Source: Betaproteobacteria bacterium Ga0077527 | GTDB taxonomy: Bacteria > Pseudomonadota > Gammaproteobacteria > Burkholderiales > SG8-41 | Reading direction: 5' to 3' | NCBI GenBank assembly: GCA_001464815.1 | Contig: LNDW01000018.1 | Span: forward strand, 124,001 to 188,000 | Length of the DNA stretch: 64,000 nucleotides | Part shown: piece by piece, positions 384 through 33,371 of the stretch | How the letters are laid out: each line of letters begins with the position of its first letter | Numbering within the stretch: the first letter of the stretch is position 1 | The notes under the pieces: model-generated | Told to the model about the DNA's origin: nothing | Database searches by the model: none | Seen by the model: only the letters and a program-made list of their open reading frames with translations | Position numbers and translations under genes: made by a program

Positions 384-926
384 ATGAGTTCGAAAGTCCG
401 TTTGGTGGTCCCCGAAGCGCCATCCCCGCAAACCGTAGCTGCGACCGAAACCCGCGCGGTGGCCATAGGCGCGGGCATCCGTCTCGGCATACTCGACAAC
501 AGCAAGGGCAATGCCGATCATCTGCTGAAGTTCATTGTCGAGGGGGTCAAGGCGGTGCTGCCGGTGGCGTCCGTGGTATCGCTGCGCAAGGACAGTGTCA
601 GCCTGCCGGCGCCGGCCGACATTCTTGATCGTCTCGTTGCGGAATCGGATTACGTCATTACCGCAATGGCCGATTGAGGGTCGTGCACGTCGTGGAGTGT
701 CCACGACATGTCGAATCTCAGCAAACGCGGTCTGACCACAGCGGTGATCTGTTCCGGTCCCTTCCTCAAGCTGGGCCAGGCCCAGGCGCGCGTGTTCGGC
801 GTGCCCGACCTGCCGTTGCTGGAAATCCAGCATCCGCTGGGTGGCCAGTCGATCGAGGGGGTCAAGGCGCGGGCTGACCACGCGGTGACGCAATTCGTGA
901 AACTGCTGAAGGAGAAGGCGCAATGA
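384..926 (+). CDS. UGSC-family selenoprotein (in-frame TGA at 675-677)
   Basis: The frame from ATG 384 (AGGAG 7 bases upstream) runs 97 codons to a TGA at 675-677 and continues in the same frame to a stop at 926. Reading the TGA as selenocysteine gives a 180-residue protein with Sec98-Gly-Ser-Cys101, the hallmark of the UGSC family. Residues on both sides align with the second copy at 26264: a GI-L-D beta strand near the start, an ESDYVI-type segment before the Sec, and GSCTS-S-HD after it. A 7-bp hairpin at 689-707 is placed like a bacterial SECIS element. The stop overlaps the next gene by ATGA. The exact reaction is unknown; a Sec/Cys redox centre is inferred. A standard gene caller would split or truncate it. 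Confidence 0.9.
689..707 (+). promoter_or_regulatory. Candidate bacterial SECIS hairpin of the first UGSC gene
   Basis: GTCGTGG-AGTGT-CCACGAC forms a perfect 7-bp stem with a 5-nt loop starting 11 nt after the TGA at 675-677. Bacterial SECIS elements lie inside the coding region just after the UGA and recruit SelB. The second UGSC gene has the same hairpin at the same distance with a swapped loop-closing pair. Confidence 0.8.
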
Positions 927-2035
927 GCGCGCTCGCACAGCTGCTGCAGGCTCCGGGTGCCAGCATCGACGCCGACGGTGATTTTGATGCGGTGAATGCG
1001 CTGGTGATGGAAAAAGGCTGGGGCGACGGCCTGCCGGTGGTGCCGCCGACCGAGGCCCGTGTCGCGGCGATGCTCGAATACTGCGACCGGCCCTGGGATC
1101 AGCCGGTGGCGAAAATTCCGCCGCGCTGGGGCGAGGCGACACCGCTGCGGCTGGCCGCCAACGCAGTGATGGCAGGTTGCGAGCCGCGATATTTCCCGCT
1201 CTACCTGCTCGCGATCGAGGCGATGTGCGAGGAACCGCTGAACCTCTATGGCGTGCAGGCGACCACCCATCTCTGCGCGCCGCTGGTCATCGTCAACGGC
1301 CCGGTGGCGAGGGAACTCAACGTCAATGCGGGGCATAACGCCTTTGGTCCCGGCCACAAGGCCAATGCGAGCATAGGCCGCGCGATCCGGCTGGCGTTGC
1401 TCAACATCGGTGGTGCGATTCCGGCGCTGGGTGACATGTCGACCTTTGGTTCGCCGGCCAAGTATTCATATCTCGTCGCTGAGAATGAGGCCGAAAGTCC
1501 GTGGGAACCATTACACGTCGAGCGCGGTTTGCCGCGCGAAGCCAGCGCGGTGACGGTGATCGGCGCCGAATGCCTGCACAACGTCAATGACCATGAAAGC
1601 CTTGATGGCGAAGGTGTGCTGACCACCATCGCCGGCACCATGGCGACCGCGGGCTCCAACGACATCTATTACAAGGCGCAGCCGCTGGTGATCATGGGAC
1701 CCGAGCACGCCAGGGCGGTGGCCGCGCATTTTTCCAAAGCGGAAGCGAAGCGTTTCCTGCAGCAGCACGCAACGCTGCCGGTGGGGCGGCTGTCGAGGGA
1801 CAACATCGAGCGCCGGGTGAAGGTGACGTTCAAGGATCGCTTGTCGAACCCGAAGCCTGATGATGTGCTCTACGCAGTGCAGCGCGCCGAAGACCTGCTG
1901 ATCGCTGTGATCGGCGGCGCCGGCAAACATTCCGCCTTTGTGCCGACTTTTGGCGCGACGCTGCCGGTGACCCGGGCGTTGAAGACCGCCGACGGCAGGC
2001 TGGCGCAATCGGTGGAGGACTTCCGGCGCCGCTGA
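923..2035 (+). CDS. Conserved partner protein of UGSC selenoprotein, copy 1
   Basis: A 370-residue soluble protein whose ATG overlaps the selenoprotein stop (ATGA), so translation is probably coupled. No classical enzyme signature is recognised. It is clearly homologous to the protein at 25185-26267, next to the other UGSC gene. Shared blocks are GWxDGLPVxPPT (residues 32-43), ANAVMAGC, IVNGP, an NxGxNAxGxG stretch, NAxIGRA and a KY near the middle. A conserved Cys follows ANAVMAG. No signal peptide or membrane segment is visible. The pairing at two loci argues that it works with the selenoprotein, perhaps as a subunit or redox partner; that is inference. Confidence 0.8.
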   Translation: MSALAQLLQAPGASIDADGDFDAVNALVMEKGWGDGLPVVPPTEARVAAMLEYCDRPWDQPVAKIPPRWGEATPLRLAANAVMAGCEPRYFPLYLLAIEAMCEEPLNLYGVQATTHLCAPLVIVNGPVARELNVNAGHNAFGPGHKANASIGRAIRLALLNIGGAIPALGDMSTFGSPAKYSYLVAENEAESPWEPLHVERGLPREASAVTVIGAECLHNVNDHESLDGEGVLTTIAGTMATAGSNDIYYKAQPLVIMGPEHARAVAAHFSKAEAKRFLQQHATLPVGRLSRDNIERRVKVTFKDRLSNPKPDDVLYAVQRAEDLLIAVIGGAGKHSAFVPTFGATLPVTRALKTADGRLAQSVEDFRRR

Positions 2036-24815: not shown

Positions 24816-25160
24816 TTGTCCAGAACGTCATTGCCCGAGGGCCTCGTGGTGTTTGTGAAGCGCAGTTGCCCGACCTGCGAGCTGATCGAGGCGGAAATCC
24901 GCGAGGTCGCGCAGCGGGTGCCGGATTTTCATGTGGTGTCACAGGACGATCCTGCGTTCCCGCGCGGTGTGGCGACCGTGATCGATGACCGTGAACTCGA
25001 CCTGTCCTGGCTCAGCAACATCGAGGCGATGCCGACGCTGCTGCGCATCGAGAACGGCCGCGAGACCGAGCGGGTGATGGGCTGGGATCGCGCCGCCTGG
25101 CAGCGGCTGACGGGGCTGCAGGGGCTGGGTGCGCATCTGCCGGCCATGCGGCCGGGATGA
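24816..25160 (+). CDS. Thioredoxin-like protein with CPTC motif
   Basis: A 114-residue thioredoxin-fold protein from TTG 24816 (GGAG 8 bases upstream). The redox motif is SCPTC at residues 17-21, after the strand LVVFVKR; a cis-Pro element (AMPTLLRIENG) and a C-terminal helix follow. It could reduce the Sec/Cys site of the UGSC protein two genes on. The stop TGA at 25158-25160 is in the same frame as the next gene, with no other stop between, and a hairpin follows. The two genes may therefore be one selenoprotein of 483 residues (24816-26267). Confidence 0.8.
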   Translation: MSRTSLPEGLVVFVKRSCPTCELIEAEIREVAQRVPDFHVVSQDDPAFPRGVATVIDDRELDLSWLSNIEAMPTLLRIENGRETERVMGWDRAAWQRLTGLQGLGAHLPAMRPG

Positions 25161-25172
25161 GGCTCCCGCTCA

Positions 25173-25193
25173 CTCGAGCCCGGGGTGGCCGAG
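25173..25193 (+). promoter_or_regulatory. SECIS-like hairpin after the thioredoxin TGA
   Basis: CTCG-A-GCC, loop CGGGGT, GGC-CGAG forms 7 pairs with one bulged A, beginning 12 nt after the TGA at 25158-25160. Spacing and size match the two UGSC hairpins, but the stem is interrupted. It also covers the GTG proposed as start of the next gene. Confidence 0.35.
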
Positions 25194-26267
25194 AAGCTGG
25201 AAGCGCGGCACCTGGGCAAGACCTGGCTTGCCTCGCGCAAGATCGAATACGGCGAAGGCACGGACCCGATCGAGGTCTGCTTCGAGCGCGGCTGGAGCGA
25301 CGGCCTGCCGGTGACGCCGCCCACCGACGAGCGGGTGATCGCGATGTTGAAGGGCGCAGCGCGCCGGCCCGATGAACTCGTCGGCAACATCCCGCCCAAC
25401 CTCGCGCCGTGCACCATCGAGAAGGTCGCGATCAATGCGGTGATGGCCGGCTGCCGACCGGAATACATGCCGGTGCTGCTGGCGGCGATCGAGGCCGCGC
25501 TGGAGCCGGTGTTCACGCTGCACGGCGTGCTCGCCACCACCTATTTCTCATCGCCGGTGATCATCGTCAACGGCCCGATCACGAAAAAGATCGGCATGAA
25601 CAGCGGCATCAATGCGCTGGGCCAGGGCAACCGCGCCAATGCCACCATCGGACGTGCGCTGAACCTGATCGTGCGCAATGTCGGCGGCGGACGGCCCGGC
25701 GAGATCGACCGTTCGACGCTGGGCGCGCCGAGCAAATACACGCTGTGTTTTGCCGAGGATGAATCCGATCCGGCCTGGCAGCCGCTGGCGCAGGCGCGCG
25801 GCATCGCCCCCGGCAAATCCGCGGTGACGCTGTTCCAGGGCCACGGCCCCGAGGCCTTTGTCGATCAGCGTTCGCGCACGCCCGAGGCGCTGACCCAGTC
25901 CTTTGCCATGTCGCTGGTGAAGATCGGTCATCCCAAGCTGGTGCAGTCGGCGCGTGTCATTGTCGTGCTGTCGCCCGAGCATTACGGCATCTATCGTGAT
26001 GCGGGCTGGGACCGTACGCACATCGAAGCTGCGCTGTATGAAGCGACGATCCGTCCCGGCGCTGAACTGGTGGCCGGCGCCGATGGTGTGGGTGAGGGCA
26101 TCCCCGCGAGCCGCGCCGGCGAGCAGGTGCCGAAATTCCATGAAGATGGCTTGATGGTGGTGCGCGCCGGCGGCGCGGCCGGCCTGTTCTCGGCGATCCT
26201 GCCGGGCTGGCTGGCCGGGCGCAGCCGTACCGAACTGCAACCGGTGACCAAGGAGATCCGAGAATGA
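25185..26267 (+). CDS. Conserved partner protein of UGSC selenoprotein, copy 2
   Basis: A 360-residue homologue of the protein at 923-2035, with GWSDGLPVTPPT (residues 36-47), INAVMAGC, IIVNGP, MNSGINALGQGN and NATIGRALN. GTG 25185 is the only start codon soon after the in-frame TGA at 25158 and has no clear ribosome site, so this domain may be the C-terminal part of a thioredoxin-Sec fusion. It ends in an ATGA overlap with the second UGSC gene, where copy 1 instead follows its UGSC gene. No membrane segment. Function unknown. Confidence 0.8.
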   Translation: MAEKLEARHLGKTWLASRKIEYGEGTDPIEVCFERGWSDGLPVTPPTDERVIAMLKGAARRPDELVGNIPPNLAPCTIEKVAINAVMAGCRPEYMPVLLAAIEAALEPVFTLHGVLATTYFSSPVIIVNGPITKKIGMNSGINALGQGNRANATIGRALNLIVRNVGGGRPGEIDRSTLGAPSKYTLCFAEDESDPAWQPLAQARGIAPGKSAVTLFQGHGPEAFVDQRSRTPEALTQSFAMSLVKIGHPKLVQSARVIVVLSPEHYGIYRDAGWDRTHIEAALYEATIRPGAELVAGADGVGEGIPASRAGEQVPKFHEDGLMVVRAGGAAGLFSAILPGWLAGRSRTELQPVTKEIRE

Positions 26268-26788
26268 CGCTGCCTTACCTGCGGGACCCCACGGCCGAGA
26301 CATCGGCGGTGAAACGCGCGCGCCGTGCGCCGCCGGCCAGCCTCGATGGCCTGACCGTCGGCCTGTTCGATATCGGCAAGACACGCAGCGACGAATTCCT
26401 CAACCGCATCGAGCAACGCCTCACCGAACGCGGCATCCGCAGCAAACGCTTCGGCAAGCCGACCAATGCCAAGGTGGCCTCGGCGGACATCGTCGAGCGC
26501 GTGGTCGCCGAAGCCGACGTGGTGCTGATCGGGCTTTCCGACTGAGGTTCGTGCACGTCGTGCAGTCTGCACGACCTGATGACCTTCGATGCGAAGGGAT
26601 TGCCCGGTGTGTCGATCGTGACTGCCGAGTTCCGTGACGCGGTTGCGGTGCAGAGCCGCGCACTCGGCTTCGAGCCCGCGGTGGTGTATGTTCCGCATCC
26701 GGTGCAGAACCGCAGCGCGGATGAACTGGCGGCAGTGGCCGATGCCGCTCTGCCGCGGGCGCTGGAGCATCTGGTGTCAAAAAAATAG
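26264..26788 (+). CDS. UGSC-family selenoprotein (in-frame TGA at 26543-26545)
   Basis: From ATG 26264 the frame runs 93 codons to TGA 26543-26545, then on in frame to a TAG at 26788, giving 174 residues with Sec94-Gly-Ser-Cys97-Thr-Ser-Cys. It aligns with the first UGSC protein on both sides of the TGA (VGLFDIGKTRSDEFL against LGILDNSKGNADHLL; GSCTSCSLHD against GSCTSWSVHD). It has one more Cys than copy 1, two residues after CTS begins. A hairpin at 26557-26575 fits a SECIS element. Role unknown; a thiol/selenol redox function with the neighbouring thioredoxin is inferred. Confidence 0.9.
26557..26575 (+). promoter_or_regulatory. Candidate bacterial SECIS hairpin of the second UGSC gene
   Basis: GTCGTGC-AGTCT-GCACGAC is a perfect 7-bp stem with a 5-nt loop, 11 nt after the TGA. 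Compared with 689-707, the loop-closing pair changes from G-C to C-G and the loop from AGTGT to AGTCT, so pairing is kept despite change. Confidence 0.8.
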
Positions 26789-32277: not shown

Positions 32278-33227
32278 TGCGCCTGGTTCGTTACACGCGC
32301 GGCGGCGCGCTGCGTCTCGGCGCACTCAACGGTGAGTCGGTCATAGACCTGCTCGACGCGGCGCCGCTGGGTACGGCACCGGCGCTGCTTGCCGCGCTGT
32401 CCGACATGACGCGGCTGATTGCCGCGGGTGATGCGGGTTTGAAGGCCGCCCGTGCGGCCGTCGCCAAAGCACCGGACGCGGCACGTACGCCGCTAGCCAA
32501 AGTCAGGCTGCTCTCGCCCATCGTGCCGTCGCTGATCCTGTGCAGCGGCGAAAATTACTGGGACCACCGCGAGGAGAAGCCCGAAGTCACGCGCAAGGAT
32601 CCGGAGTTTTTCCTGAAGACCGGGCTGGGTGTGACCGGGACGGGTGACGATATCGTGCTCGATACCGCGGTGACCAGGAAACTCGATTACGAAACCGAGC
32701 TGCTGATCGTCATCGGCAAACCGGGACGCCACATTCCGGCGGCGAAGGCGCATGAGCACATCTGGGGTTACACCGTGATGAACGACGTCACCGCGCGCGA
32801 CCGCCAGGTCACGCTGCGGCCCGACGGTTCCTCGGTCTATAACCTCGGCCCGGGCAAGAACTTCGACACCTGCGCGCCGATGGGCCCGGCCATCGTCACC
32901 GCGGACGAGATAGACGATGCGCAGAAACTGCAATTGCGCACCACGGTCAACGGCCAGTTACGTCAGAACAACAGCACCGCCAAGATGATCTGGACCTGCG
33001 CGCAGCTGGTCGAGTTTTTCTCGACCTTTGTCACGCTGCAGCCCGGGGTGGTGATTTCCACCGGCACACCCGGTGGCACCGCCTGGGGTTCGGATGCCGA
33101 ACTCGGCGGCAAGAAGCCGATGCGCAAGGATGTGGTCACCGCCAGCGGTTACCTGCAGCCAGGTGACGAGGTGGTCTGCGAGATCGAAGGTGTGGGACGG
33201 CTGGTCAATCGTGTGGTGGCGGGGTGA
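32277..33227 (+). CDS. Fumarylacetoacetate hydrolase-fold protein, second of tandem pair
   Basis: A 316-residue FAH-fold protein paralogous to the preceding one, with LILCSGENYWDHREE, LDYETELLIVIG, GYTVMNDVTARDRQ and VISTGTPGGTAWGS. The metal-binding Glu residues of DYExEL are kept. The pair may form a heteromer or catalyse successive steps of one ring-fission pathway. An AGGAT-type repeat and a TctC gene follow. Confidence 0.87.
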   Translation: MRLVRYTRGGALRLGALNGESVIDLLDAAPLGTAPALLAALSDMTRLIAAGDAGLKAARAAVAKAPDAARTPLAKVRLLSPIVPSLILCSGENYWDHREEKPEVTRKDPEFFLKTGLGVTGTGDDIVLDTAVTRKLDYETELLIVIGKPGRHIPAAKAHEHIWGYTVMNDVTARDRQVTLRPDGSSVYNLGPGKNFDTCAPMGPAIVTADEIDDAQKLQLRTTVNGQLRQNNSTAKMIWTCAQLVEFFSTFVTLQPGVVISTGTPGGTAWGSDAELGGKKPMRKDVVTASGYLQPGDEVVCEIEGVGRLVNRVVAG

Positions 33228-33246
33228 AAGGCAGGAAGCGCAATTA

Positions 33247-33336
33247 ACAGGATTGGCAGGATGTTCAGGATAAAAACCGTTGGAGACGGGGCCCGCATCT
33301 GCTTGCGGGTTATCCTGAATATCCTGTGCATCCTGA
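33247..33336. repeat. AGGAT-type inverted repeat, copy 1
   Basis: ACAGGATTGGCAGGATGTTC, then GGATAA, is mirrored by TTATCCTGAATATCCT and CATCCTG on the right. Such CAGGAT/ATCCTG palindromes recur in betaproteobacterial intergenic DNA. A second copy is at 38260-38340. Confidence 0.6.
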
Positions 33337-33371
33337 AAATATCAGTAGTTAAAAATCCGGAGGGGAGTGTC

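Follow-up and report, generated by a model that had tools for sequence, protein, structure and literature searches.

Evidence for SECIS-aided decoding in two UGSC-family selenoprotein genes and for a probable second selenocysteine site in a thioredoxin-fused partner

GrdB and PrdB are known from amino-acid-fermenting anaerobes, where the pyruvoyl subunits GrdE and PrdA serve as their partners. According to the sections covered of a 2026 selenoprotein inventory, GrdB binds the substrate and has a UxxCxxC pattern, and thioredoxin takes part in glycine reductase (PMC13188914). The UGSC-containing selenoprotein family has been known since 2008 and is uncharacterised. The part covered of the report that introduced it has Sec encoded by TGA within UGSC, a bSECIS downstream, and a fusion of UGSC to another domain, UGSC/Unknown_1 (PMC2398784). 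UGSC proteins with UAG-encoded Sec have also been reported for Blastococcus and Geodermatophilus, in the part covered of that work (PMC5330540).

Here, we analyse a 64-kb window, meaning the whole stretch of DNA under study (contig 18, bases 124001-188000), from a 3.4-Mb genome that is 91% complete. The window contains two genes of the UGSC family. Copy 2 lies on the plus strand at 26264..26788 and has an open frame of 174 codons, ending in TAG, if the in-frame TGA at 26543..26545 (plus strand) encodes Sec94. This TGA falls within the UGSC of U94-G-S-C-T-S-C, in agreement with the [U/C]GSC of the family, and the protein matches Pfam UGSC (PF24696) at 3.5e-38 with 131.9 bits (cut-off 25). Against NCBIfam NF041046 it scores 121.4 bits, narrowly under the cut-off of 125, which copy 1 reaches with 125.1 bits. 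Copy 1 (384..926, plus strand, 180 aa) has its in-frame TGA at 675..677 (plus strand) and is 29% identical to copy 2 at the protein level. The initial annotation had called a second UGSC selenoprotein gene at 26264-26788 and regarded it as a diverged paralogue with the same TGA-GSC; coordinates, TGA, motif and family match all agree with this. Copy 2 is a new member of an already known, uncharacterised family, and since the part covered of the 2008 report already has TGA-encoded Sec in UGSC and a downstream bSECIS, nothing sets copy 2 apart and its finding is not in itself new (PF24696, NF041046; PMC2398784).

To place the copies, we used a quick tree of 131 rows with the motif masked, built without 11 near-identical genes among L023-L040 and without the second gene at each of L102, L143 and L152. 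Copy 2 and the rows from named loci together form a 79-row clade (SH-aLRT 100), and copy 1 groups with genes from its own genome and from G021, a same-family draft genome (support 98). An extra Cys in copy 2 (GSCTSC) had been pointed out as a feature of that gene. The residue is there, but it is no peculiarity of copy 2: UxxCxxC is conserved across the copy 2 clade and is the GrdB pattern, which rules the Cys out as a novelty of this copy.

A genome without selenocysteine machinery would speak against recoding of these TGAs. This one encodes SelA (534 bits), SelB (429.8 bits), SelD (426.8 bits) and a tRNA-Sec with anticodon tca (75.9 bits). The SelD gene (L214, G000:C7:99371-100300) has one in-frame TGA and is probably a selenoprotein gene itself, judging from its sequence. 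Seven UGSC genes are present in the genome, with one TGA each, two of them (L006, L007) as fusions in open frames of ~600 aa. A search with Rfam over the 64-kb window returned three tRNAs and nothing further.

Both copies have a hairpin that starts 11 nt past the TGA. In copy 2 it occupies 26557..26575 (plus strand; GTCGTGC-AGTCT-GCACGAC), with a stem of 7 bp and the loop 18 nt after the TGA; in copy 1 it occupies 689..707 (plus strand; GTCGTGG-AGTGT-CCACGAC), again with 7 bp. The initial annotation had noted the equal distance, a loop-closing pair switched from G-C in copy 1 to C-G in copy 2 with pairing kept, and loops that differ at one base, and the sequences bear out each of these points. 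It had further taken the compensatory change between two copies as strong evidence that the RNA structure matters. The structure holds up, but two copies alone are weak evidence for it. The argument was overstated because the switch coincides with residue changes (Cys-Leu versus Trp-Val) and because independent contrasts are few.

Folding of single genes gives a moderate signal. Copy 2 reaches -18.5 kcal/mol (z -3.15; 1/200 shuffles equal or better) and copy 1 -17.3 kcal/mol (z -2.28; 4/200), and synonymous recoding attains the observed energy in 2.1% and 0.2% of 1000 trials, respectively. Both copies (L001, L004) satisfy the bSECIS rules given in the sections covered of the 2026 inventory (PMC13188914), namely a loop of 3-9 nt with G in its first two bases, a stem of 4-16 bp, a loop 16-37 nt after the UGA and an MFE of at most -7.5. 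These rules are unspecific, as 388 of the 2043 TGA trinucleotides in the window (19%; both strands, any frame) pass them. This lends some weight to another reading, in which the hairpin is a by-product of the conserved residues U-G-S-C-T-S-C-S-L-H-D and the TGA marks a true stop or a fault in the assembly; several stem positions do fall on the first or second base of codons for conserved residues.

Codon usage across the family bears directly on this point. Named loci were fetched by the partner protein (the best 80 of at least 584). A UGSC gene was found in 79 of the 80, the sequence of L101 ending near the partner; L064, whose contig stops before the motif, was omitted. In 79 readable UGSC genes, the Sec position is TGA in 75, TAG in two (L089 and L130, from Blastococcus and Geodermatophilus) and Cys in two. 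TGA or TAG thus occupies this codon in 77/79 genes, in loci whose titles cover many phyla, and the sequence behind the TGA is conserved, which is not what a stop or an assembly error predicts. Among the titles are Pseudohongiella, Pseudonocardia and, with Cys in place of Sec, Elioraea. The loop codon is NGT in 77/77 Sec genes (AGT 63, TGT 13, GGT 1). Loop Ser is AGT in 63/63 and loop Cys is TGT in 13/13; in the adjoining partner genes, these two codons account for 6.1% of Ser and 27.6% of Cys codons, respectively. The stem Cys is TGC in 75/77, while the unpaired Cys is split between TGC (53) and TGT (24); the second and third codons after the TGA, for the unpaired Ser and Cys, are variable and serve as an internal control. 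The stem Ser is TCG in 70 genes and TCA in four, and a TCA or ACA stem codon is paired with CAT in 5/5. In L044, GGC-AGT-GTG is replaced by GGG-AGT-GTC, a synonymous swap. Conserved residues would leave such synonymous positions free, and a by-product is hardly credible; these family-wide codon data, together with the pairing data below, rule out a chance hairpin.

The two Cys homologues have TCG for the loop Ser, and neither satisfies the bSECIS model (0/2). On the tree, the two sit together as a single pair within the Sec genes (support 97), so that SECIS loss amounts to one event. The NGT loop and its loss in these homologues imply that a SECIS can dictate the codon, and even the residue, inside an active site.

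The initial annotation had proposed bSECIS prediction and covariance analysis on family members, and saw a lack of a conserved stem in other UGSC genes as a result that would count against it. The stem is conserved across the family. The bSECIS model fits 72/77 Sec genes of the named loci, 50/53 of G021 and 7/7 of the own genome. For the pair count, we took 143 Sec genes (from named loci, the seven of the own genome, and relatives), omitted five whose D/hairpin register differs, and reduced the remaining 138 to 67 distinct 24-mers. In these 67 hairpins, 95.3% of cells pair, compared with 86.4% after shuffling, and 33 cells have changes on both sides, compared with 7.8; the covariation score is 0.275 versus 0.122 for shuffled and at most 0.121 for slid versions. 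None of 500 shuffles reaches any of the three values. Double-change pairs (4) and further pair types (9) are not clearly above shuffles (88/500 and 90/500). The closing pair is C-G in 47, G-C in 18, U-A in one and U-G in one, and is broken in none; the outermost pair is broken in 14/67. The loop codon is AGT in 53, TGT in 11, and GGT, CTT and GCC in one each, so NGT is absent from two of the 67 (L166, L169).

With Cys rows included, the tree implies at least 8 changes of the closing pair. Two independent contrasts lie on well-supported branches, both compensated, and there are five when every branch of the best tree is counted; these are too few for a tree-based test to reach significance. Synonymous recoding is beaten at the 5% level by 34/60 genes from the own genome and G021; the 26 that fail include L002 and the own-genome fusions L006 and L007. 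In many G021 fusions the stem is shifted (GCCCGC-CGTGTT-GCGGGC), and loop positions 2-3 are G-U here too. It is the codon and pair statistics of the family, rather than single-gene folding or the bSECIS rules, that establish the SECIS. Taken as sequence evidence, they indicate that the UGSC UGA is almost certainly read as Sec.

Each of the two genes is joined to a partner gene by an ATGA overlap. The stop TGA of copy 1 shares bases with the ATG of the partner gene behind it (923..2035, plus strand, 370 aa), and the start of copy 2 overlaps the stop of the preceding partner gene, whose partner domain, taken as an ORF under table 11, spans 25185..26267 (plus strand; GTG start; 360 aa). In 75 of the 80 named loci, UGSC lies <=400 nt downstream of the partner, and UGSC-partner fusions also occur. 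In L103 and L113, UGSC was instead seen upstream of the partner domain and on the other strand. The closest named partner protein, among the best 80 of at least 584, is 83% identical and comes from a Betaproteobacteria bacterium MAG. It is a guess that the Unknown_1 domain of the earlier fusion is this partner.

Neither the copy 1 partner nor the 360-aa product of copy 2's partner gave a credible Pfam or NCBIfam match. Across 62 partner members, NCBIfam returned 0 families and Pfam four weak hits, each to one member; the best had an E of 0.0049, and a GrdE/PrdA-type family was not among them, although a distant kinship is conceivable. A high-confidence structure model of the copy 2 partner had no Foldseek match at E 0.001 or less; in the best 50 of 332 matches, the best TMq was 0.28-0.29, to fumarase-like structures. 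Searches of PDB sequences gave a best E of 5.5 for the partner profile and 0.11 for the UGSC profile. Beyond the thioredoxin-like domain described below, no neighbour is common to most of the 80 named loci. The largest neighbour clusters reach 9/80, in a count that is blind to the thioredoxin-like domain because this domain lies in the partner's frame. A selA, selB or tRNA-Sec gene is nearby in 10/80.

In front of the copy 2 partner ORF lies a second ORF, 24816-25160, in frame with it across the TGA at 25158-25160. This upstream ORF contains CPTC and scores 20.5 bits for thioredoxin, under the cut-off of 23.5. Read through, 24816..26267 (plus strand; start provisional) gives 483 aa: a thioredoxin-like domain with CPTC, a PG(Sec)GS linker and the partner domain. 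The candidate second Sec codon, the in-frame TGA at 25158..25160 (plus strand), aligns with the near-invariant Cys of PGCGS. A thioredoxin-like domain precedes the partner in 79/80 named loci, in one stop-free frame in 76. Among 77 rows with PG?G, the variable codon is TGC in 56, TGT in 17 and TGA in four (the window, L053, L054 and L127); of the four loci without PG?G, L059, L068 and L071 have Cys in variants of the motif and L069 is cut. From these homologues, 24816..26267 is probably one gene.

It is also conceivable that translation simply ends at the TGA at 25158 and that a thioredoxin-like protein and a partner starting at GTG 25185 are separate products of a gene fission. The GTG lies 24 nt behind the TGA, and distinct thioredoxin and partner proteins are plausible. 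The probable second SECIS (25173..25193, plus strand; CTCG-A-GCC, loop CGGGGT, GGC-CGAG; loop 20 nt after the TGA) is also unremarkable when compared with shuffles (z -0.96), and three of the four TGA rows (window, L053, L054) fail a strict bSECIS test that L127 passes, as do 11/73 Cys rows. Against this, the eight-residue stretch from TGA to GTG (GSxSLEPG) is conserved and similar to that of fused homologues. A TGA, not a TAA or TAG, takes the place of the Cys in the window, three named loci and seven further relatives. The hairpin codons CTC GAG CCC GGG GTG GCC GAG recur in nine related TGA genes, where identical codons at invariant residues make up 6/7 in the hairpin versus 25/188 elsewhere (p 6.5e-5; counted without L127 and L268, which are too distant). 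The same replacement also occurs in L127, a distant actinobacterial (Acidimicrobiaceae) MAG, with a hairpin of different sequence at the same distance, an 8-bp stem with loop CGGGC. In the synonymous test, the second hairpin reaches only 0.081 in L127 and 0.207 in L268, which counts against the site. On balance, we regard a plain stop with two separate genes as rather unlikely, and the second Sec site at 25158-25160, from sequence comparison, as quite probably real.

We also searched 399 genomes of the order for the joined protein, scoring at most 7 candidates per genome. At near-full length and with one TGA, it was found in the own genome, in five genomes of the same family and in L268, from another family; 11 further matches had no stop. 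L272, a partial match, has the TGA and two TAA, and was compared only up to the later stops. A thioredoxin selenoprotein with a PGUGS linker is not described in the open literature searched, and the table parts covered of the 2026 inventory have no PGUGS entry (PMC13188914). In those parts, the VPGUxxT thioredoxin-like selenoprotein family (NF041383) is likewise thioredoxin-related with a PGU stretch. It differs in that the PGUGS here lies in a linker behind the thioredoxin-like domain, and the read-through protein has no match to it at E up to 1. Routine gene calling would likely cut both genes of this operon at their TGA.

What kind of protein is UGSC? In 2008, it was supposed to be a thioredoxin-fold thiol oxidoreductase of general redox defence, a reading for which the UxxC motif speaks. 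An AlphaFold2 model from 63 sequences (pLDDT 93.8) predicts instead an alternating alpha/beta protein with Sec94 just before a helix at 95-110. Its Foldseek matches, in the best 50 of 1829, are generic flavodoxin/TIR-like and other structures at TM about 0.3-0.55 (shorter or query length), with no thioredoxin among them. If the model is right, it and these matches rule out a thioredoxin fold. UGSC also nearly always travels with one specific partner, and the profile kinship described next is to GrdB/PrdB. We judge a thioredoxin-fold role in redox defence to be very improbable.

With hhalign, a profile of 144 UGSC sequences (101 after filtering) was compared with 10 GrdB/PrdB-like fragments from the own genome and the same phylum. 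The alignment places Sec on Sec with probability 91.8 and score 46.7, against a template of only 10 rows. With the motif masked, the same columns align with a score of 33.7 (54.4%); 100 column-permuted controls reach at most 24.6, the reversed profile 13.5 and the partner profile 12.9. A 63-row UGSC profile gives 81.9%. Neither copy matches PF07355 (GrdB/PrdB) at E up to 10. These profile alignments, and the UxxCxxC centre shared with GrdB, indicate that UGSC is a distant relative of GrdB/PrdB. The arrangement of UGSC and partner can be likened to that of glycine reductase, in which a Sec subunit acts with other proteins and thioredoxin, as the sections covered of the inventory have it (PMC13188914). 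There are also differences: the UGSC partner has no Pfam kinship to a GrdE/PrdA-type pyruvoyl subunit, and UGSC records include actinobacterial and proteobacterial hosts. Whether UGSC shares GrdB-like chemistry is, to us, close to an even question, leaning slightly towards no.

How these proteins work together can be outlined as follows. UGA would be decoded as Sec by SelB and tRNA-Sec, aided by an in-gene bSECIS whose loop and stem are, by sequence comparison, under selection. The partner upstream of copy 2 is itself a probable selenoprotein, with its CPTC thioredoxin-like domain, PG(Sec)GS linker and partner domain, and we infer that it forms one reductase with the UGSC protein. In the UGSC subunit, Sec94, predicted just before the helix with Cys97 and Cys100 (UxxCxxC), may attack a bound substrate as the nucleophile, after which this centre may be re-reduced by the fused thioredoxin domain via the linker Sec/Cys. 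That the substrate is a carboxylate is a guess. Overall, we think it likely that the window encodes two UGSC selenoproteins, made with SECIS-aided Sec insertion and coupled to partners, the copy 2 partner being a probable selenoprotein, which would act as two-protein reductases. More tentatively, and with somewhat less than even confidence, thioredoxin-PG(U/C)GS-partner plus UGSC could constitute a new two-subunit selenoenzyme class, related to glycine and D-proline reductase but occurring beyond fermenting anaerobes. In this reading, some lineages would have Sec in each of the two subunits, a thioredoxin built into the enzyme would donate the electrons, and the more than 50 UGSC copies of one genome would serve different substrates. 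As far as we have seen, the near-constant partner gene, the thioredoxin-fused partner with its own probable Sec, the synonymous-site evidence for the SECIS, the GrdB/PrdB kinship and the large expansion are new. Partner, built-in thioredoxin, second probable Sec and GrdB/PrdB kinship turn an uncharacterised family into a testable enzyme.

Finally, UGSC occurs in 40/61 genomes (the own genome included), and one of these is greatly enriched. G021 is a 5.7-Mb draft in 330 contigs, 98% complete and 2% contaminated. It has 58 UGSC matches, 54 with an in-frame TGA, of which three have another stop; 53 UGSC genes have the TGA in the motif (loci L030, L141-L169 and L185-L211), and a partner domain is fused to UGSC in 38 of 61 profile rows. 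It is possible that strain co-assembly inflates the count in this draft assembly. If the draft is right, its UGSC genes by themselves come close in number to the largest complete selenoproteomes of bacteria given in the sections covered of the inventory, 57 and 63 (PMC13188914), and the whole selenoproteome of G021 may rival them. A TctC/Bug receptor gene lies near 44/57 UGSC loci of G021, compared with 15/40 hand-picked stretches of the same genome (p 1.2e-4). We give this association little weight because TctC is hugely abundant in G021 and rare at the named loci (2/80) and own-genome loci (2/7). At first look, TctC/Bug candidates numbered 995 in G021 and 219 in the own genome; the best 150 were scored in each. 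Two further genes of the own genome were noted in passing. A PrdB-like gene with an in-frame TGA reads SPVUPNCTC (L171, G000:C21 near 33143-33358), and an eighth partner-like gene (L212, G000:C21:125076-126032) brings the genome search to eight partners against seven UGSC genes.
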